Assembly (NCBI GenBank): GCA_017554235.1
Contig: JAFZIV010000025.1
Coordinates: 1-44,558 of the forward strand
Length of the DNA stretch: 44,558 nucleotides
Source of the DNA: Selenomonadaceae bacterium
GTDB lineage: Bacteria > Bacillota > Negativicutes > Selenomonadales > Selenomonadaceae
Reading direction: 5' to 3'
Shown in pieces: positions 1-44,558 of this stretch. The notes beneath the pieces were generated by a model. It was given only the letters and a program-made list of their open reading frames with translations. It was not told the origin of the DNA and did no database searches. Numbering within the stretch: position 1 is the stretch's first letter; the number at the start of each line of letters is the position of its first letter. The position numbers and the translations under genes were made by a program.

Positions 1-120
1 AGTGAGCTCATGAATGAAACTGTTCTTCGAAAGTCGGGACTCTTGAAAAAATTGTTTTTAGCAGACTGAAGCATTATGCAATGAAACTAAAAGCTGGACA
101 CTGCATTAGCAATGCCCAGC
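1..120. other. Unassigned left edge
   Basis: Nothing recognisable lies in these bases. A short open frame on the + strand runs from the window edge to a stop at 67-69 and could be the last 22 codons of a gene cut by the window, but it matches no family I know. The IS1182-type element starts immediately after. Confidence 0.4.
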
Positions 121-1488
121 TCAGACTGTAGACAAAGCCCTTTTCAATGAGAGGGGCTTTAAGATTAGCAGGAGCAAAAATTTCGTTAAAAGTAAGGGAT
201 TTTTGTGCTTTTTCAATGCCAATTTTTTCAGATTCATACAAGCAAAAATAAGAGTAACGGAGGATTTAACTTTAACAAGACCGCGATAGTTTGTATAACG
301 TAGACAGTGACGCTCTTTAGCATCGGCGAAAACTCTTTCTATGGTTTCTTTGCGTTTCTTGTAAGTTTCGCGAATTTCTGGACTGTGGCGTAAATGGTCA
401 GCTTCTTCAACATATTTTGTCCAAATGTGACGAGTGACAACTTTCGTCTGATTTTTGCTCTGGGTGCACTGAGAAAGAAAAGGACAGGTAGCACAAGTTT
501 TCGGATTGCTTTTATATTCGCGATAACCTTCTCGATTTGTGGTTGTATATTTCAAAATTTGGTTTTGCGGACAAAGATAACAGTCAAAATATTCATCGTA
601 AACGTAATCGGATTTTCTGAAAAAACCGTCTTTGGTCATTGGTCGAGTATAAGGAATTGCCGGAAGTTTTCCGCTCAGAAAAATTTTTCTCAACACAATC
701 GGAGTCTTGAATCCTGCATCAAGTGCGACAATTTGCGTATGGGTTAAATCCAATTTCTCGTAAAGTTGATGAAAACTTTGACTGTCGTGTACATTTCCTG
801 CCACCAACTCAAAATCCAAAACAAAGCCGTGTTTATCGCAAGCCGTTTGACTCAAAACAACGTTCCGAAAAGTCCGCTGTCAGGGTCTGTCGTTGAGATT
901 TTTTTCTCGACTTGCTCAGCTGTGTCGAAAAGAAATTTTTTTTTACCTTCAGAAAGTCGCAACTCATTGATTTAGTCCTCAAGTTCAATTTGATATTGCG
1001 TAATGGTTTTTGTGAGTGTAACTTTTTTGCTTTTGTGTTTGTTGGCACTCGCTTTTATATGCGTGGAATCGATAAAAATTGCACTTGAGTCCACATATCC
1101 CGACTTTTGCGCTTCCTCCAATATCTTTTTGAATATCCGCTCGAAAATATCGCAGTTGGCAAACCTGCGTACATAATTTTTTCCGAAAGTCGAAAAATGC
1201 GGCACAGGTTCAGTGAGTGAATAGCCGATAAACCACCTGTACGCCACATTCACTTCTATGTATCCCAAACAGATATTGAATGAACACGATTTTGAATAAA
1301 CTTACAGGATCAATGCCGGGTCGACCTTTTTCGCTGTACAAATTTTCTAATTCGTCGTAAATGAAATTGAAATCTATGGCCTTGTCTATAATTCGTAACA
1401 GATGATTTTCCGGCACAAGTTCATCCAAACTGATTGTCACATTTTCTTTCTGTAGTTGCCTATTCTTCTTGCGATACATAAAAAACAC
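121..1488 (-). pseudogene. IS1182-type transposase, broken
   Basis: The fragments read in order as an IS1182 (DDE, DUF772-type N-terminus) transposase. The N-terminal part at 1488-1210 holds 'LDELVPENHLLRIID' and 'GRPGIDPVSLFK'. The middle part, about 1260-972, holds 'PHFSTFGKNYVRRF' and 'FIDSTHIKASANKHK'. The C-terminal part at 855-121 holds 'TACDKHGFVLDF', 'NVHDSQSF', 'LDAGFKTP' and a Cys-rich segment. At least three lesions separate them. A small deletion with frame change lies near 1260-1270. An in-frame TAA follows 'QIELED' near 972. Another deletion or frame change lies near 850-880, after a readable stretch 'TTDPDSGLF'. The stop codon lies inside the terminal inverted repeat. Family known, inactivation inferred. 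Confidence 0.85.
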
Positions 1489-1546
1489 CTCCCGACTTAT
1501 TTATACCATATCGGAAGGTGTTTTTCTACTTTTGTCTACAGTCTGA
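121..1546 (-). mobile_element. IS1182-family insertion sequence, decayed
   Basis: The element is bounded by a perfect 16-bp inverted repeat: TCAGACTGTAGACAAA at 121-136 and its reverse complement at 1531-1546. It contains the remains of one transposase gene on the - strand. No convincing target-site duplication was found in the flanks. The right end abuts the promoter of the small peptide gene at 1644, so the element lies against, and may have reshaped, that promoter. The transposase is broken in several places, so this copy should not move on its own. Confidence 0.85.
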
Positions 1547-1580
1547 AAAGCTTTACGAAAAGCTTTTAAGGGTTTATAAT
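1547..1580 (+). promoter_or_regulatory. Promoter of the small peptide gene, with paired AAAGCTTT palindromes
   Basis: A -35 like TTTACG (1552-1557) and a perfect -10 TATAAT (1575-1580) are 17 bp apart. Two copies of the palindrome AAAGCTTT (1547-1554 and 1559-1566) flank and overlap the -35 box, which would suit a repressor site. The IS1182 right end stops at 1546, directly upstream. Confidence 0.6.
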
Positions 1581-1643
1581 TTCGTCGATGTCGTAAAAGC
1601 GGCAGGCGGTTTGTCACATCTCCGAAAAGGAGGTGATGACAAT

Positions 1644-1712
1644 ATGGATAAATCTGATTGGCTCACGCTCATCAACATTATCTTGACGCTCATCGATATT
1701 CTTACTCGATAG
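1644..1712 (+). CDS. 22-residue hydrophobic peptide, type I toxin-like candidate
   Basis: The frame encodes 22 residues: a short polar start (MDKSDW), a hydrophobic stretch rich in Leu and Ile with one Asp, and a basic C-terminal Arg. A near-perfect Shine-Dalgarno site, AAGGAGGTGATGA at about 1627-1638, precedes the ATG. The gene has its own promoter (TATAAT at 1575-1580), a long hairpin just after the stop (1718-1752) and a rho-independent terminator (1809-1829). It is therefore a complete, tiny transcription unit. Short membrane-seeking peptides made from structured, self-contained transcripts are typical of type I toxin-antitoxin systems, but this sequence matches no named family I know and no antisense RNA promoter was identified. 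A leader peptide or chance frame is possible. Confidence 0.5.
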   Translation: MDKSDWLTLINIILTLIDILTR

Positions 1713-1717
1713 CGAAA

Positions 1718-1752
1718 AATGCCGCCTGAACTCACCAAATTCAGTCGGCATT
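1718..1752 (+). other. Strong hairpin after the small peptide gene
   Basis: The arms 1718-1730 and 1740-1752 pair over 13 positions with a single mismatch (AATGCCGCCTGAA against TTCAGTCGGCATT) around a 9-nt loop. No T tract follows, so it is probably an RNA stabilising or regulatory structure rather than a terminator. Hairpins like this often sequester or protect the mRNA of type I toxins; that role is inference. Confidence 0.55.
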
Positions 1753-1933: not shown

Positions 1934-1963
1934 ATCCCTGCGAAATCTGCGCGGGGATTTTTT
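1934..1963 (+). terminator. Rho-independent terminator without an obvious upstream gene
   Basis: A 9-bp stem (ATCCCTGCG with CGCGGGGAT, one G-T pair) closes a 7-nt loop and runs into TTTTTT. Between the previous terminator (1829) and here no gene is visible. It may be a leader attenuator for the fumarase operon or a backup terminator. One copy of the over-represented 8-mer CTGCGCGG (1947-1954) forms part of the loop and 3' arm. The rest of 1830-2058 holds nothing else recognisable. Confidence 0.65.
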
Positions 1964-3524: not shown

Positions 3525-3586
3525 GTGCGTAATTCGTAGTCGAAAAATTTTCATTACGCATTACGCACTAAGTATTACGCATTAAC
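3525..3586. repeat. Short palindromic repeat with TGCGTAAT units
   Basis: GTGCGTAAT (3525-3533) pairs with ATTACGCAC (3560-3568), and two further ATTACGCATT copies follow (3553 and 3575 areas). The unit is repeated in both orientations in the gap between fumB and sdhC. Its architecture resembles the GTGATCAGTG repeats at 19946, 23493 and 32570, but the word differs. It may also fold in the operon mRNA. Confidence 0.6.
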
Positions 3587-4243: not shown

Positions 4244-6055
4244 ATGGCAAAAGATATGAGCAAGAAAAAAATTGCAATCGTAGGCGGCGGTATTTCGGGT
4301 TTGCTGGCGACGATAAAAGTTTGTGAACTCGGCGGCGAAGTTGATTTATTTTCCTACTGTCCGGTTAAGCGTTCTCATTCACTCTGCGCACAGGGCGGCA
4401 TTAACGCTTGCATGGATACTAAGGGCGAACACGATAGCATTTACGAGCATTTTGATGACACAGTATACGGCGGCGACTTTTTAGCGGATCAAATTGCGGT
4501 TAAAGGTATGGTTGAAGCCGCGCCTAAACTGATAAAAATGTTTGACAGAATGGGCGTACCTTTTACGCGTACTGCTGAAGGTGTACTTGACCTTCGTAAC
4601 TTCGGCGGACAAAAACATAAACGTACTTGCTTTGCAGGTTCTACGACGGGACAACAAATTTTATACGCTCTTGATGAACAAGTTAGACGTTGGGAAGTTA
4701 AAGGCGCGGTTCACAAATACGAATTTTGGGAATTTGTTAAGATTATCAAAAACAAAGAGGGAATTTGTCGCGGACTCGTTGCGCAAAGTATGAATACAAT
4801 GGAAGTTCGTGCCTTCCGCGCAGATACGGTAATTTTGGCGACAGGCGGTCCCGGTCAAGTGTTCGGACGTTGTACAGCGTCAACAATTTGTAACGGTTCA
4901 GCAGTTTCAGCCGTTTATCAGCAGGGTGCGGAAATTGCTAACCCAGAATTTATACAGATTCATCCCACTGCGATTCCCGGTTCAGATAAAAACCGTTTGA
5001 TGTCAGAAGCTTGTCGTGGTGAAGGCGGGCGCGTTTGGGTTTACAAAGATGGTAAGCCTTGGTACTTCCTTGAGGAAATGTATCCTGCTTATGGTAACCT
5101 CGTACCGCGTGACGTTGCAAGCCGCGCTATCTTCAAAGTTTGCGTTCATATGGGCTTGGGCATTAACGGCGAAAATCGCGTTTACCTTGACTTGTCACAC
5201 ATTGACAGCGGTTATCTTGAAAGAAAACTCGGCGGTATTCTTGAAATGTATTCTGAATTTGTCGGACAAGACCCGCGCAAAGTTCCTATGGAAATTTTCC
5301 CGTCTGTTCACTATTCAATGGGCGGCATTTGGGTTGACAGAGTTCACAATACAAATATTCCCGGACTTATGGCAAGCGGCGAATGCGATTATCAATATCA
5401 CGGCGCAAATCGTCTTGGCGCAAATTCTCTTCTTAGTGCGGCGTATTCGGGAACTGTTTCCGGTCCTGAAGCAATGCGTTGGGCTAAGGAAGGTAACAAA
5501 GGTTCTGAACTGACTGATGCCGAAATGGAAAGGGCGCGTCTTGAAGTTCAAAACGAATACGAAAAGATTTTGCAGATGAACGGCTCTGAAAATGCTCACC
5601 AACTTCATCATGAAATGGGCGACCTTATGTATGAGTACGTTGCGATTGAACGCGATAATAACGGACTTGATAAAGGTTTAGAAGGTTTAAGGCAAATTCT
5701 TAAACGTTGGGATAATATCGGTATTAGCGATCACTCCAAAGTTGCGAATCAAGAGGCAATGTTCGTCCGTCAACTGCGTAATATGATTCTTTACGCAATG
5801 GCTATCACGAAGTCAGCCAGAATGCGTGACGAATCTCGCGGCGCACATGCTAAGATTGTACTTGAAAACGGCAAGCGTAAACTCGATAAAGACGGCGAAT
5901 TGGTATTTATGGGACGTGATGACGAAAAATTTATGCGCGTTACGATTGTCAATTACGATCCCAAAACCGAAGAACCGATTATCAGCTATCGTGACTTCGA
6001 CCACTCATTAATTCCGCCGCGTGCCAGAAACTACGCCGTTGCTAAGAAAGAGTAG
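4244..6055 (+). CDS. sdhA: Succinate dehydrogenase/fumarate reductase flavoprotein subunit
   Basis: This is the catalytic FAD subunit (603 residues), interconverting succinate and fumarate at the inner face of the membrane. The dinucleotide-binding motif GGGISG is at 14-19. His45 in 'RSHSLCAQGGI' is the expected covalent FAD attachment residue. Active-site segments are 'HPTA' (His240), 'ACRGEGG' (Arg258), 'HYSMGG' (356-361) and 'GANRLGANSLL' near 388-398. The ATG at 4244 follows GGGGTGA. An in-frame ATG at 4256 is possible but has no better ribosome site. The gap to sdhC is 18 bases. Confidence 0.97.
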   Translation: MAKDMSKKKIAIVGGGISGLLATIKVCELGGEVDLFSYCPVKRSHSLCAQGGINACMDTKGEHDSIYEHFDDTVYGGDFLADQIAVKGMVEAAPKLIKMFDRMGVPFTRTAEGVLDLRNFGGQKHKRTCFAGSTTGQQILYALDEQVRRWEVKGAVHKYEFWEFVKIIKNKEGICRGLVAQSMNTMEVRAFRADTVILATGGPGQVFGRCTASTICNGSAVSAVYQQGAEIANPEFIQIHPTAIPGSDKNRLMSEACRGEGGRVWVYKDGKPWYFLEEMYPAYGNLVPRDVASRAIFKVCVHMGLGINGENRVYLDLSHIDSGYLERKLGGILEMYSEFVGQDPRKVPMEIFPSVHYSMGGIWVDRVHNTNIPGLMASGECDYQYHGANRLGANSLLSAAYSGTVSGPEAMRWAKEGNKGSELTDAEMERARLEVQNEYEKILQMNGSENAHQLHHEMGDLMYEYVAIERDNNGLDKGLEGLRQILKRWDNIGISDHSKVANQEAMFVRQLRNMILYAMAITKSARMRDESRGAHAKIVLENGKRKLDKDGELVFMGRDDEKFMRVTIVNYDPKTEEPIISYRDFDHSLIPPRARNYAVAKKE

Positions 6056-6073: not shown

Positions 6074-6865
6074 ATGGCTGATAAAGTCAGATTTATTATA
6101 GAGCGGCAAGACGGTCCCGACGAAAAGCCTTATAATCAGGAATTTGATGTAGATTATCGTCCCGGACTTAACGTCGTCGCCGCGTTAATGGAAATTCAGA
6201 AAAATCCCGTAACTGTTGACGGAAAAAGAGTTCCGCCCGTCAACTGGGAATGCAACTGCCTTGAAAAAGTTTGCGGAGCTTGCACAATGGTTATCAACGG
6301 CAGAGTTCAGCAAGCTTGCTGTGCGTTGATTGATCACCTTAAGCAGCCTATTCATCTTCAACCTGCGCGGACATTTCCTGTAATTCGTGACTTGCTCGTT
6401 GACCGCAGCATAATGTTTGAAAATCTTAAAAAGATTCAAGGCTGGGTAGAAATTGACGGCTCTTGGGAAGTAACCAACGCACCGATTCAAAATCCTTATA
6501 CCGCACAGCTTACTTACAAACTTTCGCAGTGTATGACTTGCGGCTGTTGTCTTGAAGCGTGTCCGAACGTCAATTACAGTCATTTGGGCATTGAAGGGCT
6601 TAGAGAGGAAAAAAGCGCGGGAGCTGCCGATTTTATGGGAGCATCGCCTATTGCTCAAGCTTACCTGTTCAACTTAAATCCTATTGGAAGTTTCGATAAA
6701 CCTAAACGTCTTAACGCGCTTATGGAAAAAGGCGGCATTACCAGTTGCGGCAATTCTCAAAACTGCGCGGCTGTCTGTCCGAAATCTCTTCCGCTTTTGG
6801 ATGTACTCGCGCAAGTTAATCGTGACGTTAATGTCCAAGCATTGAAAAATATGTTTAACTTCTAA
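6074..6865 (+). CDS. sdhB: Succinate dehydrogenase/fumarate reductase iron-sulfur subunit
   Basis: This subunit passes electrons from the flavoprotein to the cytochrome b anchor. Three cluster motifs are visible: a [2Fe-2S] set 'CNCLEKVCGAC' plus a later Cys (about 60-82), a [4Fe-4S] set 'CMTCGCCLEACP' (about 153-164), and a [3Fe-4S] set 'CGNSQNCAAVCP' (about 225-237). I chose ATG 6074, 8 bases from AAGGGGAG (6058-6065). The TTG directly before it at 6071 would add one Met and cannot be excluded. The gene ends the fum-sdh operon; a terminator follows within 50 bases. Confidence 0.97.
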   Translation: MADKVRFIIERQDGPDEKPYNQEFDVDYRPGLNVVAALMEIQKNPVTVDGKRVPPVNWECNCLEKVCGACTMVINGRVQQACCALIDHLKQPIHLQPARTFPVIRDLLVDRSIMFENLKKIQGWVEIDGSWEVTNAPIQNPYTAQLTYKLSQCMTCGCCLEACPNVNYSHLGIEGLREEKSAGAADFMGASPIAQAYLFNLNPIGSFDKPKRLNALMEKGGITSCGNSQNCAAVCPKSLPLLDVLAQVNRDVNVQALKNMFNF

Positions 6866-7027: not shown

Positions 7028-8275
7028 ATGCAACTTAAAATTTTAGGATTGAATTATAAGACTGCACCCGTTGAGATTCGTGAAAAAATTTCTCTCGACA
7101 AAGAATCTATTCGACTTGGTCTTGAAAATCTTGACGGTTATGATGACATTGAAGAAGCGGTTATCCTTTCAACGTGTAATCGCACAGAAATTTATGCCGT
7201 TATATCGACAGTACACGCGGACAGCATCAGAGATTTTTTAAACGATTTAACAGGCGGTAGCGTTGAAAATTATCTTTATGAATACACCGGCGAAAGTTGC
7301 GTCCGTCATCTTTTTAAAGTTGCGTCGAGTTTGGACTCATTGATTTTAGGCGAAGGGCAAATTTTATCGCAGGTTAAAGACGCTTACACCCTTGCTAAAT
7401 CTGTCGGTGCTACCTCAACTGTGCTGAATACGCTGTTCAATAAAGCCATTGCTGTCGGGAAACTCGTCCGCACTGAAACGCGCATTGCTTATAATTCCGT
7501 GTCGATAAGTTCTGCCGCAGTAAATCTTGCCGAAAAAAATTTGGGCAGTCTTCAAAATCTTATCGTTCTAATTTTTGGCGCAGGTAAAATGGCACAACTT
7601 ACCGCTCAACATCTTAAATCCCGTAATGTTGGGAAAATTTTTATTGCCAATCGTCATTACTCCCGCGCAGTTGAAATGGCTGAAAAGTTTAACGCAACTG
7701 CCGTAAAGTGGGAAGACGCTCTTAACACTGCCGATAATGTTGACATTATCGTTACTTCGACGGGTGCGCCGCATTACGTCGTTAAGGCATGGCAAACTCA
7801 ACAACTTATGACGCGTAGGCAAGGGCGAAAAATTTTTTTTATTGATATTGCCGTGCCGCGTGACGTTGACCCGGACGTTACAAAAATTAACGGTGTCACT
7901 CTTTACAACATTGACGATTTAGAATCCGCCGTCGAGGAAAATATAAAATTTCGGCAGGAGGAAGCGAAATCTGCGCGGAAAATTTTAAATGAACACGTTG
8001 CCGCGATTATGGAACGGTTTAAATATTTAAAATTCCGTCCGCTTATGGCTGACTTGTCTCAACGTGCAGAAAAAATTCGTGAAAGAGAAATTAAACGTAT
8101 TGCAAACAAATTATCCAATATTAGCAATGATGATAAAAAAATTATTGACAATATGACTAAAATGATTGTGAGGAAACTTTTGCGTATGCCAATGATGCGC
8201 TTAAATGCGTCTGTCGGTACGGATGATGAAAAGTTTTACGCGGACGCAATGAAGGCACTTTTATTGGACGGTTGA
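7028..8275 (+). CDS. hemA: Glutamyl-tRNA reductase
   Basis: This enzyme catalyses the first committed step of C5-pathway tetrapyrrole synthesis, reducing glutamyl-tRNA to glutamate-1-semialdehyde with NADPH. The catalytic cysteine is Cys50 in 'STCNRTEIYA', the family's signature place. 'GEGQILSQVKDAY' (108-120) and the nucleotide-binding 'IFGAGKMAQL' (about 182-191) are also present. At 415 residues it is full length. It has its own promoter and only a weak ribosome site (AGGATTAGG). Other hem genes normally found next to it (hemC, hemD, hemB) are absent here, but an AhbC-like heme gene lies about 3.5 kb downstream. Confidence 0.96.
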   Translation: MQLKILGLNYKTAPVEIREKISLDKESIRLGLENLDGYDDIEEAVILSTCNRTEIYAVISTVHADSIRDFLNDLTGGSVENYLYEYTGESCVRHLFKVASSLDSLILGEGQILSQVKDAYTLAKSVGATSTVLNTLFNKAIAVGKLVRTETRIAYNSVSISSAAVNLAEKNLGSLQNLIVLIFGAGKMAQLTAQHLKSRNVGKIFIANRHYSRAVEMAEKFNATAVKWEDALNTADNVDIIVTSTGAPHYVVKAWQTQQLMTRRQGRKIFFIDIAVPRDVDPDVTKINGVTLYNIDDLESAVEENIKFRQEEAKSARKILNEHVAAIMERFKYLKFRPLMADLSQRAEKIREREIKRIANKLSNISNDDKKIIDNMTKMIVRKLLRMPMMRLNASVGTDDEKFYADAMKALLLDG

Positions 8276-10207: not shown

Positions 10208-11458
10208 ATGCAAATTCTAAATATGGAGAATTGGGATGCTAAAGCCATCCTAACAGCAAAAGGTGTATCGATATTGACGGCAACGGCATTATTGGCTGGC
10301 GGTGTGACATTGGCGGTGTCAAATTCGGTAGCGGATAGCGACAAAGTTATTTCCGGTGTGAGATATGACGGTAAAGACATAGGCGGAATGACAGCCGCGC
10401 AAGCTAAAAATTTCTTTGAACAGTCTGCCGCGCAAAAAATGCAACCTTTGACGTTCACGTATAACGGTCAAGAGTTTAAGATTCAACCGCAGGATATTAA
10501 TTGGACGCCGAAAGTTAATGATGCAGTTAATGAGGCGGAAAGTTACGGACGCGGTAAAGGTTTACTTGGAAATTTCGGTGAGCAAATTAATTCATTTATG
10601 GGCGGGCATGACGTAAAACTTGCCGCAGTTTATGATGAAGATTTACTCAACCAAAAACTTGACGAGATTGCCGCGCAGGTTAATACTCAACCCGTCAATG
10701 CTTATTGTAACCTTCACTCCAACGGAATGATTGAACCTATTCCCGGCGTTGTCGGAAAAAAGCTTGACCGCGATAAATTAGCCGAATCACTCAAAGACCC
10801 GCTTACAAATTTGACAACTTCTAAACAGGCTATTGCACTTGAACTTGATGACATTGAACCTTTCATAAGGACGGAAGACGTTGCAAGTATCGATACAATT
10901 CTTGGCGAATACAGCACCTATTATTATCCCGGAGATCGCGGCGATAACATTTGGATTGCCGCTAATTCGATTGCAGATAAAATTGTAAGACCGGGCTGGG
11001 AATTTTCCTTCAATACTACGGTTGGACCGCGCACTTGGGAGGCTGGCTATAAACCTGCAGGCGTTATCATTAACGGAAAAGCTGATGTTGATTACGGCGG
11101 CGGTGTATGCCAAGTAAGCTCGACACTTTACAACGCGGTATTGCTGGCGGGATTGACTCCTACCGAGAGAACTCCGCATTACTTCCAATCTTCATATATA
11201 GGTTACGGCAGGGACGCAACGGTTGCTGACGGACAAATTGATTTTAAATTCCGTAATGATTTACCGCATACCGTTTACTTGAAAGCGGACGCATCAGGCT
11301 CAACTTTAACCATGTATGTGTTAGGAACGAGAGCTGATTTAAACGGAACGACAATTTCCATTGAAAATGATGGCGCGTCATTGTACAGAACTTATTATAA
11401 AGACGGACAAGTAGTCAAAGATGAATACTTGCACACCGACCAATATTATACCAGTTGA
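10208..11458 (+). CDS. VanW-family protein with PG-binding-4-like domain
   Basis: This is an exported or membrane-anchored cell-envelope protein of 416 residues. One hydrophobic segment (about 19-40) should act as an N-terminal anchor. After it come repeats of the peptidoglycan-binding-4 type found next to VanW and L,D-transpeptidase domains. The VanW domain itself follows, with the hallmark 'YGGGVCQVSSTLYNAVLLAGL' near 296-315. VanW's biochemical role is not established; the family associates with cell-wall metabolism. I chose ATG 10208, 10 bases from AGAGGAG (10191-10197). A longer frame from 10106 would overlap the glycosyltransferase and has no ribosome site. The stop abuts the structured RNA at 11460. 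Confidence 0.88.
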   Translation: MQILNMENWDAKAILTAKGVSILTATALLAGGVTLAVSNSVADSDKVISGVRYDGKDIGGMTAAQAKNFFEQSAAQKMQPLTFTYNGQEFKIQPQDINWTPKVNDAVNEAESYGRGKGLLGNFGEQINSFMGGHDVKLAAVYDEDLLNQKLDEIAAQVNTQPVNAYCNLHSNGMIEPIPGVVGKKLDRDKLAESLKDPLTNLTTSKQAIALELDDIEPFIRTEDVASIDTILGEYSTYYYPGDRGDNIWIAANSIADKIVRPGWEFSFNTTVGPRTWEAGYKPAGVIINGKADVDYGGGVCQVSSTLYNAVLLAGLTPTERTPHYFQSSYIGYGRDATVADGQIDFKFRNDLPHTVYLKADASGSTLTMYVLGTRADLNGTTISIENDGASLYRTYYKDGQVVKDEYLHTDQYYTS

Positions 11459-11794: not shown

Positions 11795-12967
11795 ATGATT
11801 AGTTTAACGAAATTATTATTTGCAAAAAATTATTTCGGCGATAGCTTACGTTATACAAAAAATTCTAATCGTATGACGAGCGGCGCGGCTGAAGGTATCG
11901 GTCCCGTCGTTGTCTGGAATTCTACACGCACCTGCAACTTGAAATGTCGGCATTGTTATATGAACTCGGACGCTAAAATTTATCGTGATGAACTCACGAC
12001 GGACGAAGCGAAAAAGTTTATAGATGACTTATCGGCGTTTAAAGTGCCGGTGCTACTTTTTTCAGGCGGCGAACCGCTTATGCGTAAAGATTTTTTTGAA
12101 CTTGCCGAATATGCGGCGGCTAAAAATGTTCGCCCGACTCTTTCAACTAATGGCACGCTTATAACCCGCGCAGTAGCCGAAAAAATTAAAAATATTGGCG
12201 TTGGTTACGTTGGAATTTCTCTTGACGGTATCGCTGATGTTAATGATAAATTTCGCGGCGTTGAAGGTGCTTTCAAGCGGGCAATGGACGGCATAAAAAA
12301 TTGTGTTGCCGTCGGTCAACGCGTCGGTTTAAGGTTTACAATTAACCGCCATAATTTTATGGAGCTTGATAAAATTTTTGACTTCATTGAGTTTGAAAAA
12401 ATTAATCGCGTCTGCTTTTATCATTTAGTTTATTCAGGACGCGGTTCAAATATGATTGATGAAGATTTAACGCCTATTGAGTCGCGTCAAGCTATGGACA
12501 AAATTATTGAGCGTACAAAAGATTTTGAAAGGCGCGGGCTTGAAAAAGAAATTTTGACGGTTGATAATCATTGCGACGGCGTTTACGTCTACTTGAAAAC
12601 TTTATCAGAAGGTGACGTTGAGACTGCCGCGCAGATTAAAAAATTTATTTCGATGAATGGCGGCAACCGTTCAGGCATTGCATTTGGAGAAGTTGACCAT
12701 TTAGGTTACGTTCACCCAGACCAATTTACGCAACATCATACTTTCGGCAATGTACGTGAAAAATCTTTCGGTGAGATTTGGACAGACACTTCCAATAAAA
12801 TTTTGGCAGGGTTGAAAAATCGCAAGCCGCTTTTAATTGGACGTTGTGCTACGTGTAAATTTTTAGATTGTTGCAACGGAAATTTTAGGACACGTGCTGA
12901 AGCCGTTACAGGAAATTTTTGGACGTCTGACCCTGCCTGTTATCTGACTGACGAAGAAATTCGTTAA
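11795..12967 (+). CDS. Radical SAM/SPASM-like heme biosynthesis protein, AhbC/NirJ-like
   Basis: The radical SAM core opens with 'CNLKCRHCY' (Cys47, Cys51, Cys54), which binds the catalytic [4Fe-4S] cluster. 'FSGGEPLMR' and 'STNGTLI' follow, and a Cys-rich C-terminus ('CATCKFLDCCNGN', then a last Cys) is expected to hold an auxiliary cluster. The N-terminal layout ('KLLFAKNYFGDSLRY' before the cluster) resembles proteins called NirJ1/AhbC, which remove acetate side chains from didecarboxysiroheme in the alternative heme route. HemA upstream supports a heme role. I chose ATG 11795, which fits the family N-terminus. The frame stays open back to 11711, but that part lies in the structured RNA. 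No clear ribosome site precedes 11795, which is odd. Confidence 0.75.
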   Translation: MISLTKLLFAKNYFGDSLRYTKNSNRMTSGAAEGIGPVVVWNSTRTCNLKCRHCYMNSDAKIYRDELTTDEAKKFIDDLSAFKVPVLLFSGGEPLMRKDFFELAEYAAAKNVRPTLSTNGTLITRAVAEKIKNIGVGYVGISLDGIADVNDKFRGVEGAFKRAMDGIKNCVAVGQRVGLRFTINRHNFMELDKIFDFIEFEKINRVCFYHLVYSGRGSNMIDEDLTPIESRQAMDKIIERTKDFERRGLEKEILTVDNHCDGVYVYLKTLSEGDVETAAQIKKFISMNGGNRSGIAFGEVDHLGYVHPDQFTQHHTFGNVREKSFGEIWTDTSNKILAGLKNRKPLLIGRCATCKFLDCCNGNFRTRAEAVTGNFWTSDPACYLTDEEIR

Positions 12968-19213: not shown

Positions 19214-19957
19214 TTGATGATTGAGGGAGCAGAGCCGTTTTTATTTCGCGGCGGCAAAGAAGGCGTCCTGTTGATTCACGGATTTACGGGATCGCCAGCG
19301 GAACTTTTATTGCTAGGAGAATTTTTAAACCACGCAGGTTATACAGTTTTATGCGTAAGACTTGCCGGACACGGCACAAGCGAATTTGACTTGGAGCGTA
19401 CAACTTGCGCCGATTGGTTTAACTCTGTGCTTGACGGTTACGCAATGCTTAAAAGTTCCTGCGAAAAAATCTTTGTCGTCGGTCACTCTATGGGTTCACT
19501 TTTAAGCTTGAAACTTGCCGCGTTAAAGCACGTTGACAAATTGGTTACATTATCGCCGCCGTTTTTTATCAACGAAGAATTACATTTGGAACAATTACCG
19601 CCGCGCAGTGAGTGCGAAAATTTATTCACATTTAAACCGCGCAGAAAATTACACAACGTCCCTCCCGCCGTCAATAAGACTTATAGAAAATTGCCGTTGG
19701 TCTGCGTCCACGAATTTTTAATTTTGCTTAATGAAGTAACAGAAATTTTATCAAAAGTTCGGACGCCGCTTTTAATAATGCACGCGGAAGACGATCACAC
19801 GGCGAAATTTGAGAGCGCGGAATTTTTATTTAATGCCGTCTCGTCGGAGCAAATCAAGCTGGTTAAAATTCCTACGGGCGGACATTTAATCCCGCTGACT
19901 GAAGGGCGGGATTTTGTATTTGAAAATATTTTGGAGTTTTTAATAAGTAGTGAATAG
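19214..19957 (+). CDS. Alpha/beta hydrolase, carboxylesterase/monoacylglycerol lipase-like
   Basis: This is a cytoplasmic serine hydrolase of 247 residues related to the Est30-type carboxylesterases. The oxyanion-hole segment 'LLIHGFTGSP' (about 19-28) and nucleophile elbow 'GHSMGS' (Ser92) are clear. The acid is probably Asp193 or Asp194 in 'HAEDDHT', and the base His224 in 'TGGHLIP'. Natural substrate is unknown. The start is TTG 19214 or ATG 19217; the nearest ribosome-like GGAG is 13-16 bases away, rather far. The last codons and stop (AGTAGTGAATAG) are formed by the first units of the palindromic repeat that follows, so the C-terminus was probably set by that repeat. Confidence 0.87.
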   Translation: MMIEGAEPFLFRGGKEGVLLIHGFTGSPAELLLLGEFLNHAGYTVLCVRLAGHGTSEFDLERTTCADWFNSVLDGYAMLKSSCEKIFVVGHSMGSLLSLKLAALKHVDKLVTLSPPFFINEELHLEQLPPRSECENLFTFKPRRKLHNVPPAVNKTYRKLPLVCVHEFLILLNEVTEILSKVRTPLLIMHAEDDHTAKFESAEFLFNAVSSEQIKLVKIPTGGHLIPLTEGRDFVFENILEFLISSE

Positions 19958-25410: not shown

Positions 25411-25460
25411 ATAGTCAAACACATTAGAGATGATAAACTCTCCGGCGTACTACACGCCTC
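25405..25460 (-). ncRNA. Possible 3' end of the TnpB element, omega-RNA-like hairpins
   Basis: On the - strand directly after the tnpB stop, GGCGT-GTAGT-ACGCC and GAGAG-TTTATCAT-CTCT form consecutive hairpins. TnpB elements end in a structured omega RNA that overlaps the 3' end of the gene, with the guide just outside the element, so this is the expected place. The exact boundary is not determined. Confidence 0.4.
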
Positions 25461-32569: not shown

Positions 32570-32642
32570 TCAGTGAATAGTGGTCAGTGATCAGTGAAAG
32601 TGAAAAAAATTCTGACCACTGATCACTAACCACTGACCACTT
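32570..32642. repeat. Palindromic repeat, copy C (GTGATCAGTG family)
   Basis: The left half is CAGTGAATAGTGGTCAGTGA; the right half carries CTGACCACTGATCACTAACC and ends in CTGACCACTT, as copy A does. It lies between the giant ATPase gene and its partner and may fold in their shared mRNA. The partner's ribosome site GGAGG follows directly. Confidence 0.8.
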
Positions 32643-32662: not shown

Positions 32663-33748
32663 GTGTCCAGAATTAATACGCGAATTTCGCTTTTAAATTC
32701 ATATAACGCGAATGAAAGTAAAATTGATTTTAATAAGTTACAGCCGCTTGACAATGAGGAATTGTCATCTTGGTGGCGAATGGTACCGGGTGCTCGGCGT
32801 TTTACAAACAATGCGGCTGATGCAGTTGAAAAACACTGCGCGGCGGCGGCTCATTTACCGCAGGTTGACCTTGAAGGTTTTGTAAGAATGTTGGCGGATA
32901 AAATTTCGCGGCGTCATGTTTCACAGATTGTAGAAATTTTTGAATACGATGAAAAGGGCGACATTGAAGATTTTGTAACGGCGTTGACTGAAAGATTTGC
33001 GTCAAATTTTCTGCGCGACTTTACAAAAGATTCGCCAATGACAGACGTTGCAGATCAAAATGCATGTGGCGGCTACGTGATAATCGTCAAGCTTAAGCGC
33101 AAAGTAAAATGGCTTACGTCAGCGGTCGTTGACTTTAACAAAGGTATGCACAATTCGACAGGCTCAATAATTTTTGTGACTTGTGAAGACAATCCGCCGC
33201 CAAGTTTAGCGAGATTATCAGATTATTTGACGCCTTATGATGTACAATTTTTTGCGATAAACTTATTGGAAAATTCTAAGTTGACTACGCAGGAAAAATT
33301 ATATACTTCAACATTAGCGGCAAAACTTTCGGGACAATCGGCGATATTGGCGAAAAATCTTGCGAAGGTGGAATTATTGACTGAAGGCGTTGACTTCGTA
33401 AAAAAAATTGTTCCTAACTTCGATGAAAGAGTTTTTTCCCGCGCAGTTTGGGAATGTCAAGCTCAATTTTTATTACCGACACTTGAACAATTACGCGGCA
33501 AGTTGATTGAAAAAAATTTTGTCCGCTTACGACATATACTTCCTGTTACTGATGAATTTGGAAAACTTTTGACAGATCCTTGGGATATGGAACTGCGCCA
33601 CCTTCACTTTTACGGCGGCAATGCTATGGTTTTTCAACCAAGAGATTGGGATATTTTAGAACTTGCCTACCAAGCCCGCAATGAACTTTCACATTTGACG
33701 ACGATTGATTTACAACGCCTTGAAAGATTATTTGCCTTTGCGGAATAA
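32663..33748 (+). CDS. Partner protein with C-terminal HEPN-like motif
   Basis: The protein is unrecognised as a whole, 361 residues. The N-terminal half is mostly helical and Asp/Glu-rich. The centre has an alpha/beta-like segment ('GGYVIIVKLKRKVKW', 'GSIIFVTCEDNPPP', 'YDVQFFAINLL'). The C-terminal 80 residues are helical and contain 'ARNELSHL', an R-x4-H motif at Arg339/His344 followed by 'DLQRLERLFAF', as in HEPN ribonuclease or Swt1-type HEPN domains. HEPN proteins often are RNA-cleaving toxins or effectors controlled by a partner ATPase. The start is GTG 32663, 10 bases after GGAGG. It follows the giant ATPase gene in the same direction, separated by a repeat. Function is inference. Confidence 0.6.
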   Translation: MSRINTRISLLNSYNANESKIDFNKLQPLDNEELSSWWRMVPGARRFTNNAADAVEKHCAAAAHLPQVDLEGFVRMLADKISRRHVSQIVEIFEYDEKGDIEDFVTALTERFASNFLRDFTKDSPMTDVADQNACGGYVIIVKLKRKVKWLTSAVVDFNKGMHNSTGSIIFVTCEDNPPPSLARLSDYLTPYDVQFFAINLLENSKLTTQEKLYTSTLAAKLSGQSAILAKNLAKVELLTEGVDFVKKIVPNFDERVFSRAVWECQAQFLLPTLEQLRGKLIEKNFVRLRHILPVTDEFGKLLTDPWDMELRHLHFYGGNAMVFQPRDWDILELAYQARNELSHLTTIDLQRLERLFAFAE

Positions 33749-33766: not shown

Positions 33767-35152
33767 TTGAATGAAATTTTGCAAGCGCGTCATAACGCAT
33801 TGGCACGCGCTCTTGAGACTAACATTAAGCATATTTTTCAGACACAGCAGTTGGATTTTTCCATTATGGAACAGGAATTTATCAAGCAAGGTTATCGCGA
33901 AGATCAATCTTCCGGCATAGAAAATATTTTGATTTTCCGACTTGACTACATGGGCGATTTTATTTTGACTACTCCAGTGATTCGTGAAATTCGCGCCAAT
34001 TATCCCTATGCTTTTATAACTTTGGTCGTCAATAAAGCTGTCTATCCTATGGCGGAACTTTGTCCTTATGTCAATGAGGTTATTCCGATTGAAGTTGATT
34101 ACGGACAACTTGTACTTAATCAAGACATACAAGGTATGCTTATGATTGCTTCTAATGTTGCCGCGCAGTATCTTTGGAAAAGAAATTATACTTTGTGCAT
34201 TTGCTTGCGTCATCAAATAGATTTAATAGATTTGTTTTTAAATTATTTAAGTGGTGCAAAAAAACGTGTAGGACATATTAAGAGCATAAGTTATCCTTAC
34301 GAAGGCGATCCCACTCAGAAACCCAATGATATTGCGAATTATTTTTTGACGCAACCGATTGTTCACCCAAAGGAAATTATGCATACATGCGCAAAAAATT
34401 TATACCTACTTAAGGCAATGGGATTGCAAATCAGACAAACAAATGCCGAACTTTGGTATGACGCGGAAGATTTATATACTGCGCGAAAATTGCTTGAAGG
34501 GTTTGCGCCCAATCATCTGAAAATTATTGCCGGAATTGGTGCAAATCATCCCGCCCGAAAATATCCGATTGAAAAATATCTCGCCGCATTTAAATTGATC
34601 GTCAAAAAATCGGGCTCTCTGGTTATTATTGGTGGTTCTCAAGAAGTGGAAGATGCAAAATTTTTGGAAAAAAATCTGCCTAAAGAATCTGTAAAAAATT
34701 TTGTCGACATGAAGTTAAGTTGGAGAATCACGGCCTCAATAATTTCTCAATCCGATATGTACATCGGAAACGATTCCGGTACTATTCATATTGCCGCCGC
34801 TGAAAATATTCCGACAATCAAGATTAGTCGAGAATCTAAAGACAGCTTTGACGATGAAAAAATTAAAGGCTTTCTTAGCGAATACACACTTTTTTTCCCG
34901 TGGCAAACTAATTCAATAAATATTCGTCCGAAACACGCACTCGGCACCTGTAAGAATAAAACCGTTTACGGCGGTTGTGCTGAATGGAAACCGCATTGTA
35001 TAACGCAAATTGATCCAAAAGAAATTGTTGACGCTTATGAAACCTTTGCTAAACTTATCAAAAGTTCAGGAATAAAGAGGACGAGTTGTCCAACGATAAT
35101 GCGCAGTGTGAATCAAGTTCCTCAATTATATTCTAATCTCATCAATCCTTGA
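33767..35152 (+). CDS. Glycosyltransferase family 9 (heptosyltransferase-like)
   Basis: This is a GT-B fold glycosyltransferase of 461 residues, likely adding heptose or another sugar to lipopolysaccharide core at the cytoplasmic face. 'ILIFRLDYMGDFILTTPVIREI' opens the acceptor domain. The donor domain shows 'GIGANHPARKYP', 'LVIIGGSQEV' and 'SDMYIGNDSGTIHIAAAENIPTI', all GT9 hallmarks. Its presence suggests an organism with an outer membrane. I chose TTG 33767, 8 bases after AGGAG. The GTG at 33758 overlaps that ribosome site. It follows the HEPN-like gene by 18 bases and may be co-transcribed, though no functional link is evident. Confidence 0.85.
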   Translation: MNEILQARHNALARALETNIKHIFQTQQLDFSIMEQEFIKQGYREDQSSGIENILIFRLDYMGDFILTTPVIREIRANYPYAFITLVVNKAVYPMAELCPYVNEVIPIEVDYGQLVLNQDIQGMLMIASNVAAQYLWKRNYTLCICLRHQIDLIDLFLNYLSGAKKRVGHIKSISYPYEGDPTQKPNDIANYFLTQPIVHPKEIMHTCAKNLYLLKAMGLQIRQTNAELWYDAEDLYTARKLLEGFAPNHLKIIAGIGANHPARKYPIEKYLAAFKLIVKKSGSLVIIGGSQEVEDAKFLEKNLPKESVKNFVDMKLSWRITASIISQSDMYIGNDSGTIHIAAAENIPTIKISRESKDSFDDEKIKGFLSEYTLFFPWQTNSINIRPKHALGTCKNKTVYGGCAEWKPHCITQIDPKEIVDAYETFAKLIKSSGIKRTSCPTIMRSVNQVPQLYSNLINP

Positions 35153-36125: not shown

Positions 36126-37394
36126 TTGAGTCGCAGATTGTTCATAAAACTTTTGTTAAGCTTGGGACTTGGAACATATTTTCCAAAATTAGTCGAAGCG
36201 TCACGATATGAAAAATTGCATAAACCGCAGGACGGTTACAAGCCTTTACGACAGGTAAAATTTTTGCGGCAGATTGTCACAAAAGATTCAAGAACTTCAC
36301 GCGTCATAATGTGGCAGTCTGACGAAGAATTAATCGGCGTGCAAGTTGAATATAAACTTATCGGCAATGACGGTGCGATTTTCTGCGCGGTAGACTTTGA
36401 AATTTTTCAGCAGGACGACGCGACGATTTACATTTACACTTGCAAGCTTGAAAATCTTAAGCCTGAAAGTTTATATAACTTTAGAATTATTTGTGATGAC
36501 AAGTCTACGAGTTGGCAAAATTTACGAACGGCTGGCGACGGAAATTTTCAGATGTTAATTTTCAGCGATTCGCAATGCGTCAATTATGAAGTTTGGCAGA
36601 AAGTTGCTGACACTGCTGCGCAAAATTATCCTGACGCGGAACTCGTCACGGTGATTGGTGATTTGGTTGACAACGGGCAGGCGGCGTATCAATGGCGGGC
36701 TTGGTACCTTGCCTCTGCGTTTATTTTGTCGGAAAGAATTTTCGCGCCGGTTATGGGCAATCACGAATGTTATAATTTGAATTGGTTGAATTATTTGCCC
36801 GTCGATTATCTTCACCAATTTTATTTACCGTCGAATGGTACAAAACATTTTGGCGGTTATTTTTATTCTTTCGACTATGGAGCGGCGCATTTTTTTGTAC
36901 TGAACACGCAATTTTTGGAGCTGGAAAATTTTACGAAAAACTTTCAGGACGCCCAAAATTATTGGTTGCGACGTGATGCGGCTAATGCTAATCGGCGTTG
37001 GAAAATTGTTTTAATGCACAAAGACATTTACGACTACACGGCGGATAATTTCAACGATATTGCGGAAAATTTTATGCCGCTGTTTGATGAATTAGAAATT
37101 GACGTAGTTTTTACGGGACACCTGCACACTTACAGAAATCGCGGAAAAATTTTTGCACAAAAAAAATCTGCGCGGGGAACTCTTTACATTTTATGCGGCA
37201 GGTCGGGCGATCAAAAATATGTTGAAAGAAATTCGCAGATTGATGAAGTAATTGCGCCGAATCTTCAAACTGAACCTGAATCTTACATTACGCTTGACGT
37301 TAGCGCGGAAAGTTTAACGTTGACTTCCCAAACTGTGGACGGCGCGATTTTGGATAAATTTATTTTGACGAAGGAAAGACTACAATTTATTTGA
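36126..37394 (+). CDS. Tat-exported calcineurin-like metallophosphoesterase
   Basis: The N-terminus SRRLFIK followed by a hydrophobic stretch matches the twin-arginine export signal, so the mature enzyme should fold in the cytoplasm and work outside it. A fibronectin-like purple acid phosphatase N-domain comes first ('TSRVIMWQSDEE', 'LKPESLYNFRI'). The catalytic domain has metal ligands in 'FSDSQ' (about 146-150), 'GDLVDNG' (about 178-184), 'GNHE', 'MHKD' and 'GHLHTY'. Substrate is unknown; phosphomonoesters or diesters are possible. It is 422 residues. It begins with TTG after GGAG and sits 12 bases behind the hypothetical gene. Confidence 0.85.
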   Translation: MSRRLFIKLLLSLGLGTYFPKLVEASRYEKLHKPQDGYKPLRQVKFLRQIVTKDSRTSRVIMWQSDEELIGVQVEYKLIGNDGAIFCAVDFEIFQQDDATIYIYTCKLENLKPESLYNFRIICDDKSTSWQNLRTAGDGNFQMLIFSDSQCVNYEVWQKVADTAAQNYPDAELVTVIGDLVDNGQAAYQWRAWYLASAFILSERIFAPVMGNHECYNLNWLNYLPVDYLHQFYLPSNGTKHFGGYFYSFDYGAAHFFVLNTQFLELENFTKNFQDAQNYWLRRDAANANRRWKIVLMHKDIYDYTADNFNDIAENFMPLFDELEIDVVFTGHLHTYRNRGKIFAQKKSARGTLYILCGRSGDQKYVERNSQIDEVIAPNLQTEPESYITLDVSAESLTLTSQTVDGAILDKFILTKERLQFI

Positions 37395-41927: not shown

Positions 41928-42713
41928 ATGTCAAAATACAACGACATTGACATAGATTTTTGGAAAGATTATTCAGATATTGAAACTGATTCGTTATGGA
42001 TTATTGACAAGCGCGATAATTCGGGATCGCACAACGGTGATTATCACGGAAATTTTGTTCCGCAGATTCCGCATCAATTATTCAGCAGGTACACCAAAAA
42101 AGGCGATTGGATAATTGATCCTTTTATGGGCAGTGGTACTTCGTTGATTGAGGCTAAGCGTATGGGCAGAAATGCTATTGGCATTGAGTTGCAACAAAAG
42201 GTTTTGGACACCGCCGCGCAGAGGATAGCCGCTGAAATTGGCGATTCAAAGATGATTCAAATTTGCGGAGACAGTTCAACTATTGACTTGCAACCGACTC
42301 TTACCTGCGCGGGTATCGAAAAAGTTCAGTTTGTAATTTTTCATCCGCCGTATTGGGACATAATAAAGTTTTCTGCCAATCCTAACGATTTATCTAACTG
42401 TCTTACGCTTGAAGAATTTAAAAATTCTTTCGGAAAAGTTATAGACAACACGACGAAATTTTTGGAAAAAAATCGTTACTGCGCGGTAGTTATCGGCGAC
42501 AAATACGCTAACAGTCAAGTTGTGCCACTGGGCTTTTATTGTATGAACTTATTTTTGGAAAGAAATTTTTTACTAAAGGGAATTATTGTTAAAAATTTTG
42601 GAGAAACTAAAGGCAAGGCGAATCAGCAAGGAATTTGGCGATATCGTGCGCTTAAGAGCGACTTTTATATTTTTAAGCACGAATATATTTTTATTTTTAA
42701 AAAGATTTTCTAA
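41928..42713 (+). CDS. DNA methyltransferase, N4/N6 class
   Basis: This is an AdoMet-dependent DNA methylase of 261 residues. The AdoMet-binding motif I region is '[28 protein letters not shown]' in outline (about 64-90). The catalytic motif IV is 'FHPPYWD' (about 140): the usual Asp, Asn or Ser before PPY is a His. The PPYW form points to N4-cytosine methylases. No target-recognition domain is obvious and no restriction gene is adjacent, so it would be an orphan. It splits dnaK from dnaJ, which have kept their order, and dnaJ has gained or kept its own promoter. The ATG follows AAAAGGTG. Activity is uncertain because of the His. Confidence 0.75.
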
Positions 42714-42717
42714 ATGG

Positions 42718-42726
42718 TGGTATAAT
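42718..42726 (+). promoter_or_regulatory. Extended -10 promoter of dnaJ
   Basis: TGGTATAAT (42718-42726) overlaps the methyltransferase stop region and lies 35 bases before dnaJ. No good -35 is present. Confidence 0.6.
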
Positions 42727-42760
42727 ATTTTTTTATTTAAAGATTCAGAAGGTGAGAATT

Positions 42761-43939
42761 ATGGCGCAAAGAGATTATTACGAAGTTTTAGGCTTAAATA
42801 AAAATGCGACTGACGATGAAATTAAAAAAGCTTACAAAAAGCTTGCGAAAAAATATCATCCCGATTTAAATCCTGATGATAAGAAAAACGCTGAAGAGAA
42901 AATGAAGGAACTCAACGCGGCGTATGAAGTTTTGAAGGATAAAGATAAACGTGCGCAGTATGACCAATTTGGACATGCGGCATTTCAACCGGGCGGCGGC
43001 AGACCTAATTCCGGCGCAGGTTTTGGCGGATTCGATATGGGCGACATTTTCGGAGGACGCGGCGGCGGCTTCGATATGGGAGATATTTTTGAGCAATTCT
43101 TCGGCGGCGGCGGGAGATCGCGCGGTCGTGATAAAACTCCCGGGCCTGAACGCGGCGCAGATTTACGATACGATTTAAGCGTAACTTTTGAAGAGGCGGC
43201 ATTTGGTAAGGATATGATGATTAAAGTTCCACGCCTTGAAAATTGCGAAGAATGCGGCGGAAGTGGTGCGGCTAAAGGAACTTCGCCTGAAACTTGTCCC
43301 GATTGTAAAGGCACTGGAACGCGTCAAACTACTACTCGTATGCCTTTCGGTGTCGTCAATGCCACGCGCACCTGTGAACGTTGTCACGGTAAAGGAACGA
43401 TTATTAAAAATCCTTGCGGGCATTGTCACGGCAACGGTAAAGTTCGTGTTGAACGCGATATTAAAGTTGTTGTTCCTCGCGGCGTCGATAACGGTACGCG
43501 ACTTCGTATTCAAAACGGCGGACAACCGGGCGAACGCGGCGGAGCTACCGGCGACCTTTACGTTTATATCAATATCAAGCCGCATCCTATTTTCACTCGT
43601 GACGGTACGACGGTTCATTGTGAAGTACCGATTAGTTTTGTACAAGCGGCACTCGGCGCGAAAGTTGAAGCTCCTACCATTGACGGAAAAGTTGAGTTGA
43701 CTATTCCCGAAGGCACGCAATCCGGCACGGTTTTAAAAATTCGCGGCAAAGGTATTCCGGTTCTGCGCGGCGAAGGCAGAGGCGATGAACTCGTTAAGGT
43801 AAAAGTTTTGACGCCGAAAAATCTTTCAGCCCGTCAAAGAAAATTGCTCCAAGATTTTGAGTCCGGCGGCAGTGACGTTCAAAATAATCCCGAGAAAAAA
43901 TCTTTCCTTGATAAGCTTAAAGGGCTTTTTACCGATTAG
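42761..43939 (+). CDS. dnaJ: Chaperone DnaJ (Hsp40)
   Basis: This is a type I J-protein of 392 residues. The J domain carries HPD at 33-35. A Gly/Phe-rich region follows (about 70-125). The zinc domain has four CxxCxGxG repeats starting near residue 162 ('CEECGGSG', 'CPDCKGTG', 'CERCHGKG', 'CGHCHGNG'). Two C-terminal substrate-binding barrels complete it. It stimulates DnaK ATPase and delivers substrates. I chose ATG 42761, preceded by AGAAGGTGAG. An in-frame GTG at 42752 is part of that ribosome site. Confidence 0.96.
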
Positions 43940-43968
43940 TCGGAAAGGGGGGAGGTTAGGGGTAATAA

Positions 43969-44428
43969 ATGCAGTTACAAAAATTTGACAAGATTGTAAA
44001 AAAATTTATGCTGATATTCCTCGTGCTAACTGTAACGGCGGCGGGGTTTAACGGCTTTTTTCTTAAGTGGACATTGCGTGACGGCGATCCAAATTTCGGA
44101 CTTGAAGCGTATCTTGAAGGCACAGCTAAACGTCCCTTCGCCCACCGAGTACTTGTCCCAAACGTCGTTAAAACTATAGCTGATGCAATTCCTGCAGACG
44201 CTAAGGAAAAATTATCTAAGCGATTGATTGAACGGCGAGAAGTTGAAAAAAAATACGCGCAGGCGATTGTTCCCGAAAAATACGTCATTGAATATTACTT
44301 GACGATAATTTTTGCGTTTCTAAGTTTATTCGCGGCTGTATGGGTGTTACGCTCCATTGTCAACGAAGTAACGGGCGATAAAGTTGTAGGCACTTTAACG
44401 GCTTGCCTATACGCACTACTAGGTAGTG
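43969..44428 (+). pseudogene. Membrane protein gene interrupted by an insertion sequence
   Basis: The first roughly 150 codons are intact: an N-terminal membrane helix (about 12-32), a soluble loop with 'RPFAHRVLVPNVVKTIADAI', and a second helix (about 110-131) followed by the start of a third ('LTACLYALL'). From about 44421 the sequence is the end of an IS5-type element, so the open frame continues only by chance to 44499. The rest of the gene would lie beyond the element. I do not recognise the family; the 'RPFAHRVLVP' motif recalls poorly characterised multi-pass membrane proteins. It starts 29 bases after dnaJ. Confidence 0.7.
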
Positions 44429-44558
44429 TTCACACTAAAGAATCAATCACAATAGCAAAGAGAATAAACCCCTCAAAGACTACGTCTAACTTATCGTAAC
44501 GCGTAAAAACTCGACGAAACCGTTTTATTCTTCTAAAAAAACGTTCAACTTCATTGCG
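44420..44558 (-). mobile_element. IS5-type insertion sequence, left part only
   Basis: The element edge is near 44420, where GGTAGTGTTCACAC would be the terminal repeat, and it runs off the window. It contains the 3' end of a - strand transposase. It has cut the membrane-protein gene at 43969. Confidence 0.7.
44430..44558 (-). CDS. IS5-family transposase, C-terminal 42 residues
   Basis: Read from the window edge, the - strand encodes 'NEVERFFRRIKRFRRVFTRYDK' in parts followed by 'EGFILFAIVIDSL' and a TGA at 44432-44430. The pattern of an early Glu with R-F-x-R-I/L-K and R-x-x-T-R-Y-D is the C-terminal signature of IS5-group (IS427/ISL2-like) DDE transposases. The start lies outside the window. 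It differs from the element at 24402, so it is a second IS5-type lineage. Confidence 0.75.
   Translation of the reverse strand, partial: RNEVERFFRRIKRFRRVFTRYDKLDVVFEGFILFAIVIDSLV

Follow-up and report, generated by a model that had tools for sequence, protein, structure and literature searches.

Uptake words have been described in two proteobacterial families, and their existence elsewhere was called unknown in papers of 2006 and 2013 (PMC1626085, PMC3630211). The families are the Pasteurellaceae, with the uptake signal sequence (USS; AAGTGCGGT / ACAAGCGGT), and the Neisseriaceae, with the DNA uptake sequence (DUS). The USS 8-mer of Haemophilus influenzae has 1,687 copies in 1.8 Mb (PMC1626085), and in its layout a GC-rich core is flanked on one side by A/T-rich motifs (PMC1626085, PMC12616744). 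Here, we describe another 8-mer, CTGCGCGG, which is highly iterated in a contig of a Selenomonadaceae bacterium (JAFZIV010000025.1; its whole length of 44,558 nucleotides is called the window below) and in the genome to which this contig belongs. We read it as a DNA-uptake word with dialects, and put the chance that this reading is right at roughly two in three.

The word has much in common with the USS. Both reach a density near one copy per 1–1.5 kb, both have a short GC-rich asymmetric core with A/T-preferring flanks, of which the downstream ones are spaced, and neither shows a strong orientation bias. In both cases, two or more dialects are distributed by clade, and a minor pilin of the FimT/GspH type (ComN/PpdA) is the predicted receptor of the USS, as a FimT-like minor pilin is the candidate here (PMC1626085, PMC12616744, PMC1939737). 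Unlike the USS, however, the word belongs to a host in the phylum Bacillota (Negativicutes), has other letters and is enriched in open reading frames (ORFs), and its role in uptake is a proposal. With the DUS it shares a copy number of over a thousand and dialects that track phylogeny, and the overlapping dyad pairs of the DUS in Simonsiella recall a palindromic dialect, TCCGCGCGGA, that is described below (PMC3630211). The letters again differ from those of the DUS, and since only 14 of 318 copies were found outside ORFs, the word is not chiefly a terminator element.

No publication that links uptake sequences with Firmicutes or Negativicutes was found in a search that covered no preprints and few subscription papers; a less strict search yielded mainly work on Neisseria and Pasteurellaceae. 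CTGCGCGG itself was not found in the literature searched, and an earlier report elsewhere is possible. Veillonella parvula, a Negativicute, is naturally competent; when it was screened for a DUS, no sequence of at least 10 bases reached 100 copies, and shorter words remained a possibility (PMC5397411).

Abundance and anatomy of the word

The host is probably a Quinella-like member of the rumen Selenomonadaceae (Negativicutes), because by glutamyl-tRNA reductase the nearest named records are metagenome-assembled genomes of rumen Selenomonadaceae, with Quinella sp. 1Q5 inside the wider group. Quinella is placed in the Negativicutes by NCBI; the Negativicutes are bacteria with an outer membrane. 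In the host genome (G000; 2.27 Mb in 65 contigs), 1,508 copies of CTGCGCGG were counted, 753 on one strand and 755 on the other. The same word read backwards has 194 copies, which makes a ratio of 7.8; that this ratio is no higher in the host itself makes the backwards word a weak control. Family members from 29 other genera (108 genomes) have 3–587 copies and other families (39 genomes) 2–378, and in some of these genomes CTGCGCGG outnumbers the backwards control by up to 7- to 8-fold, as it does in the host. The confinement of the abundance of CTGCGCGG to the genus is one of copy number only.

Within the window, CTGCGCGG occurs 16 times on each strand, 32 times in all. Shuffles of the window that preserve its dinucleotides (n = 100) contained 0.94 copies on average and 4 at most. 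Markov models of orders 1 to 6 predicted 1.0, 1.8, 2.1, 3.7, 11.8 and 28.6 copies, the last two from models that largely contain CTGCGCGG itself. At order 3, the check proposed in the original prediction, the word ranked first among the 8-mers with at least six copies in the window. That prediction, made from the window, had counted about 30 copies; all 30 positions that it listed are right, and two copies, at 4816 and 42305, had been overlooked. The GC content, for which it gave about 42%, was measured as 40.1%. AAAT, which it called common upstream of the word (at least five times), precedes five of the 32 copies.

Further counts were made in a sample of 452 kb, which consists of the window and 26 host stretches of 3.6–20 kb. 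Twenty of these came from low-numbered contigs, nine of them being short whole contigs, and six were picked around pilus, secretin or competence genes. Of the 318 copies in this sample, 304 fall within ORFs (100 codons or longer) and 14 do not. When synonymous codons were permuted within genes (100 shuffles), 15.1 ± 4.1 copies were left and never more than 24, so the observed number is about 20-fold higher and codon use is therefore no explanation. The copies use all three codon frames in both orientations. It had been foreseen from the window that the word was balanced between strands, fell in all three frames and was no artefact of codon use, and each of these points was borne out. A codon-aware model and enrichment in the rest of the genome had been named beforehand as the tests that could refute the idea, and neither the shuffled genes nor the genome-wide count does so.

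Relative to the genes, 132 copies have the same strand and 172 the opposite one, a slight excess of the latter (p = 0.025). Orientation by GC skew, which was determined in 15 stretches, gave 101 against 119 copies (p = 0.25), and a leading-strand bias was not seen. The gaps between copies look random, with a coefficient of variation of 1.03, and regular spacing is not supported. The longest word-free stretch examined spans 18.5 kb on contig C1 of the host; most of it is taken up by a single giant gene (about 5,370 codons; L052, 12406-20000; L216, 1-8533) that weakly matches RTX-like repeats, and the stretch is not obviously a mobile island. Eleven further word-free stretches of 5–7 kb were noted.

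The exactness of the word was examined in 334 kb, where the word has 240 copies and its 24 one-mismatch neighbours have between 0 and 55 each. If the change falls in the central GCGC, the number is only 0–9, and the commonest one-base changes are at base 2 (G, 48), base 7 (C, 30) and base 8 (A, 55; T, 36). None of 38 permutations of the same letters, complements included, exceeds 11 copies. Alignment of the 240 copies showed that conservation extends beyond the core. With the first base of the word as 0, A is present at -3 in 61% and at -2 in 64%, and G is never found at -1 (0/240). Downstream, the flank is A-rich from +8 to +11, A/T peaks occur at +13 and +16, and there is little conservation past +16. 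The extended consensus is AA[T/C/A]-CTGCGCGG, followed by A/T-preferring positions. Four genomes from elsewhere in the genus share this core; they keep the upstream preference but differ in the downstream one. The word is strictly asymmetric in the host, with three places of CCGCGCGG and five of CTGCGCAG against 318 of CTGCGCGG.

Dialects and spelling at orthologous sites

Sixty genomes of the genus, the host and 59 others, were counted whole. With thresholds that we set at 250 copies per Mb and a 1.8-fold preference, 25 of the 60 favour CTGCGCGG, seven favour CTGCGCGA and 28 favour neither. The preference for CTGCGCGA over CTGCGCGG is marked, for example 2,335 against 170 copies in G006, 2,206 against 123 in G004 and 2,294 against 132 in G043. 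Two of the genomes that favour neither are rich in CCGCGCGGA, with 1,482 copies in G036 and 2,179 in G052, and the other 58 genomes have at most 167. Many of these copies belong to the palindrome TCCGCGCGGA, which counts once per strand; in 96 kb of this dialect, 32 of the 45 CCGCGCGG places are TCCGCGCGGA. The non-palindromic core is hence a property of CTGCGCGG and CTGCGCGA that fails for the TCCGCGCGGA dialect.

Synonymous shuffling gave a similar picture for the other spellings, with 111 copies of CTGCGCGA in G006 against 11.0 after shuffling and 65 of CCGCGCGGA against 5.9. Weaker candidates by the same procedure are CTGCGCA in G048 (34 against 6.9) and CTGCACG in G013 (35 against 6.8), and CTGCGCAG, with eight places in 102 kb of G058, is a possible dialect. 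The others of the 28 genomes carry no assigned word. In G037 and G045, TCAGCGCG at first suggested a fourth dialect, which was dropped, as whole-genome counts showed it to be moderately common across the genus; in many members it is several-fold above its backwards control, for example 1,005 against 188 in G039. G045 lies above the CTGCGCGG threshold, and was kept outside the CTGCGCGG group in the orthologous-site count and in the association of pilin and dialect on the tree described below. GGATCTG in G003 (loci L072-L076, L208, L209) was also enriched, with 85 copies against 31 after synonymous shuffling, but the gene strand has 78 of the 85, and it is therefore not comparable to CTGCGCGG.

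The dialects follow phylogeny. A tree was made of 51 glutamyl-tRNA reductases (HemA), that of the window and those of 50 of 51 loci (L051 was too short), and was labelled for CTGCGCGG and CTGCGCGA only, from 3–21 kb per record. The labels cluster on this tree, which needs nine dialect changes against 21.2 when the labels are shuffled. The six CTGCGCGA rows are on one side of a branch with a support of 78, and five outer rows together with two of Mitsuokella have essentially no word.

The word also switches its spelling in place, from CTGCGCGG to CTGCGCGA, at orthologous sites. Host stretches were aligned to the available loci of relatives, which is not a genome-wide sample, and one count was made per site and genome or record; some records with an L number come from genomes that also have a G number (e.g., L006 and G006). 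For CTGCGCGA genomes, 59 pairs of a host site and a genome or record were compared (22 host sites, 13 genomes or records); 19 pairs have CTGCGCGA at the orthologous place, three have CTGCGCGG and 37 have neither. Control words ending in CGG whose first seven bases are kept retain G in 349 cases in these genomes and have A in 18. In CTGCGCGG genomes (40 genomes or records, 32 sites), the 8-mer is CTGCGCGG in 28 of 98 pairs, CTGCGCGA in none and neither in 70. The 30 unlabelled genomes or records (82 pairs, 46 sites) have CTGCGCGG in 14 pairs and CTGCGCGA at one site. Counted by distinct host sites, the ratio of CTGCGCGA to CTGCGCGG is seven to two in CTGCGCGA genomes and zero to 14 in CTGCGCGG genomes (Fisher p = 0.00015). 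In the palindromic dialect, neither word was found at any of the four comparable sites. A clear example is the window site at 7971, which is CTGCGCGG in L001, L002, L004 and L037 and CTGCGCGA in L006, L007, L008, L010 and L011.

Competence genes and features of the window

The host genome encodes ComEC and DprA. Three T2SSE ATPases are over the cut-off and were read as a PilB-like, a PilT-like and a Tad ATPase, and of two secretins, one is in a locus read as Tad-like and the other stands alone. Beside a gene read as mnmG, four prepilin-like genes lie in a row, which were read as FimT-, PilV-, PilW- and PilX-like. These pilus gene names are our own reading; Pfam families T2SSE, Secretin and Competence matched over their cut-offs, and N_methyl and TadE were slightly below theirs in one search, with N_methyl above in another. 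The FimT-like pilin is the candidate of interest, as the predicted USS receptor is a pilin of the FimT family (PMC12616744). It was matched in 56 of the 60 genomes, in some over the N-terminus only, and in 11 of the 12 well-assembled ones. The exception is G003, scored as 100% complete, where no pilin was matched and CTGCGCGG is not above background (50 copies, control 94). Among 51 pilins scored 120 or more, the C-terminus carries GR without exception, and 42 have GRxR, which is the DNA-binding motif of FimT (PMC8897410).

On the forward strand of the window, the copies are at 1947..1954, 6363..6370, 6763..6770, 7971..7978, 15866..15873, 16784..16791, 20881..20888, 21459..21466, 30914..30921, 31014..31021, 32836..32843, 36383..36390, 37168..37175, 42305..42312, 42479..42486 and 43763..43770. 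On the reverse strand, they are at 4816..4823, 7663..7670, 10671..10678, 12166..12173, 12627..12634, 13848..13855, 15323..15330, 16961..16968, 19601..19608, 19637..19644, 21932..21939, 22089..22096, 28186..28193, 33439..33446, 34161..34168 and 42214..42221. The copies at 7663 and 7971 are both in the glutamyl-tRNA reductase gene; the orthologous place of the former is CTGCGCGG in L001, L002 and L003 too. The same holds for the copy at 10671 in L050 and for that at 15866, in a MutS2-like gene, in L030.

Several other features were observed in the window. A TnpB-type element (IS605 OrfB) of the insertion sequence (IS) class at 25460-26629 on the reverse strand has similar DNA in L058 and L207, and no CTGCGCGG was found in 2.2 kb of these repeats. 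The original prediction had noted no copy in the IS elements, and the 25460-26629 element agrees with this. Tandem repeats of imperfect heptads, such as TAGTGAA and AGTGGTC, are found, in part between genes, at 3552-3584, 19948-20009, 23493-23582 and 32570-32641. ACTATTCACT occurs 35 times in 334 kb, where 0.3 are expected, and exact arrays of at least three copies are few (five in 452 kb). The protein of 1,862 codons encoded at 26969-32557 on the forward strand matched models of Pfam and NCBIfam, at the thresholds used, only through an AAA_22 ATPase domain close to the C-terminus.

Weighing the explanations

The original prediction had offered an uptake word, a HIP1-like element and a methylation or repair site without ranking them. 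The uptake word is now favoured, on account of the asymmetric core, the A/T flanks, the USS-like density, the absence of a strong orientation bias, the clustered dialects, the switching at orthologous sites and the competence genes, and the other two roles are less supported. If the word is read on DNA that enters the cell, this one assumption explains its asymmetry and flanks, its density and lack of strong orientation, and also the dialects and their switching in place. Competence of the cells, enhancement of uptake by the word and the identity of its reader are what we infer. In the mechanism we propose, fragments that bear the word would be bound at the cell surface by a DNA receptor of a competence type IV pilus, and the FimT-like minor pilin may be this receptor. 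The DNA would enter via an outer-membrane secretin and then ComEC, DprA would protect it, and recombination into the chromosome would follow. Uptake bias and homologous recombination could in this manner spread the word through the genome by molecular drive. When the receptor preference of a lineage shifts, the words at existing places would change, and the dialects CTGCGCGG, CTGCGCGA and TCCGCGCGGA may have arisen by this route.

Several results weigh against reading the word as an uptake signal. It is depleted outside ORFs in the 452 kb, with 14 copies where 40 are expected by length, or 0.245 per kb against 0.770 inside. The one-mismatch neighbours are likewise depleted between genes, but more mildly (0.560 against 0.934 per kb), and composition therefore accounts for only part of the depletion. 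DUS and USS are enriched in non-coding DNA (PMC1939737), and CTGCGCGG shows the reverse; the trait is a reported one, not a defining one. The TCCGCGCGGA dialect is largely palindromic, and six of the 28 genomes that favour neither main word are rich in one or both of them without a 1.8-fold preference. The pilin and the word do not always go together. No pilin was matched in the word-rich G012 and G020 (71% and 60% complete) and only a short match was found in G051 and G018, all four being 60–83% complete, and some genomes, such as G007, G027, G031 and G047, have the pilin and neither main word. The pilin of the host itself ends in GRWS, not in GRxR. Pfam GspH was matched in one of 28 pilins, at an E value of only 0.07; the NCBIfam GspH model matched 21 of the 28 (best E 8e-6), with the host's pilin far below the cut-off. 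Of the pilin residues that divide the host clade from the CTGCGCGA genomes, none is shared by the other CTGCGCGG clade except at one helix position. A residue code for the dialect was not found beyond that position, and the receptor thus remains a candidate; the association of pilin and dialect on the tree is inseparable from shared ancestry.

The main rival is a HIP1-like word kept by an intracellular DNA methyltransferase or by a repair or recombination enzyme, with the dialects as changes in the target of that enzyme. We consider it unlikely. HIP1 of cyanobacteria (GCGATCGC) is, like CTGCGCGG, a highly iterated 8-mer, and CTGCGCGG lies mostly inside genes; its core includes GCGC and CGCG, the frame C-Y-GCGCG is common to the words, one of the dialects is largely palindromic, and the intergenic depletion is unlike DUS and USS. 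HIP1, however, is a palindrome with a link to orphan methyltransferases (PMC4390886), whereas the host word is strictly asymmetric, has a palindromic form only in the TCCGCGCGGA dialect, and has A/T-preferring flanks past the core that recall the USS. The window does encode a DNA methylase (PF01555, circularly permuted by our reading) at 41928-42713 on the forward strand, between dnaK and dnaJ. In L090 (G006) and L098 (G007), dnaK and dnaJ are adjacent and the methylase is missing, and it had no match in the other loci compared, which are small parts of their genomes; the comparison covers the one methyltransferase gene noted in the window. For these reasons, the methylase is unlikely to be the general reader of the word.

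The remaining explanations fare worse. A Chi-like recombination signal for AddAB or RecBCD would also be a GC-rich 8-mer with genome-wide over-representation, and Chi sequences vary between lineages. The same synonymous shuffling in 50 kb of Escherichia coli K-12, however, gave a 3.4-fold enrichment for Chi (17 against 5.05), and Chi is tied to the gene strand (14 of 17, or 82%, against 132 of 304, or 43%, for CTGCGCGG). Given this difference under the same test and the lack of a leading-strand bias by GC skew, CTGCGCGG is not Chi-like, and we regard such a role as improbable. Even less probable is a dispersed mobile or structural repeat (REP-like, a terminator or a segregation motif). The many copies throughout the genome would suit it, but there is little conservation past +16, the spacing is near random, 304 of the 318 copies are within ORFs, and no strong bias of orientation or skew was seen. 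That the word merely follows from codon usage, from amino-acid pairs or from base composition finds some favour in the Markov expectations at orders 5 and 6, which account for 11.8 and 28.6 of the 32 copies observed. We nevertheless consider this explanation refuted by the synonymous shuffling, and the rarity of the same-letter permutations, the use of all frames and both strands, and the spelling switch in cousins all argue against it.

The best reading is that an uptake word is present in a third lineage beside the Neisseriaceae with their DUS and the Pasteurellaceae with their USS. Somewhat less firmly, we favour a broader picture, in which uptake self-recognition evolved independently for a third time in a two-membraned rumen genus of the Bacillota, with at least three dialects, one of them palindromic, that change in place as the taste of the receptor shifts and form a barrier to exchange among co-resident species. 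Quinella has been reported in sheep that emit little methane, and the terms competence, transformation and pili do not occur in its genome paper (PMC9585023). If our reading holds, the uptake-word trait can arise more than once, and an uncultured rumen group that includes Quinella probably exchanges genes by transformation. With 60 or more genomes and several dialects in one genus, direct tests of whether preference and word change together would become possible, and the word itself would suggest a label for getting DNA into the bacteria of this group.

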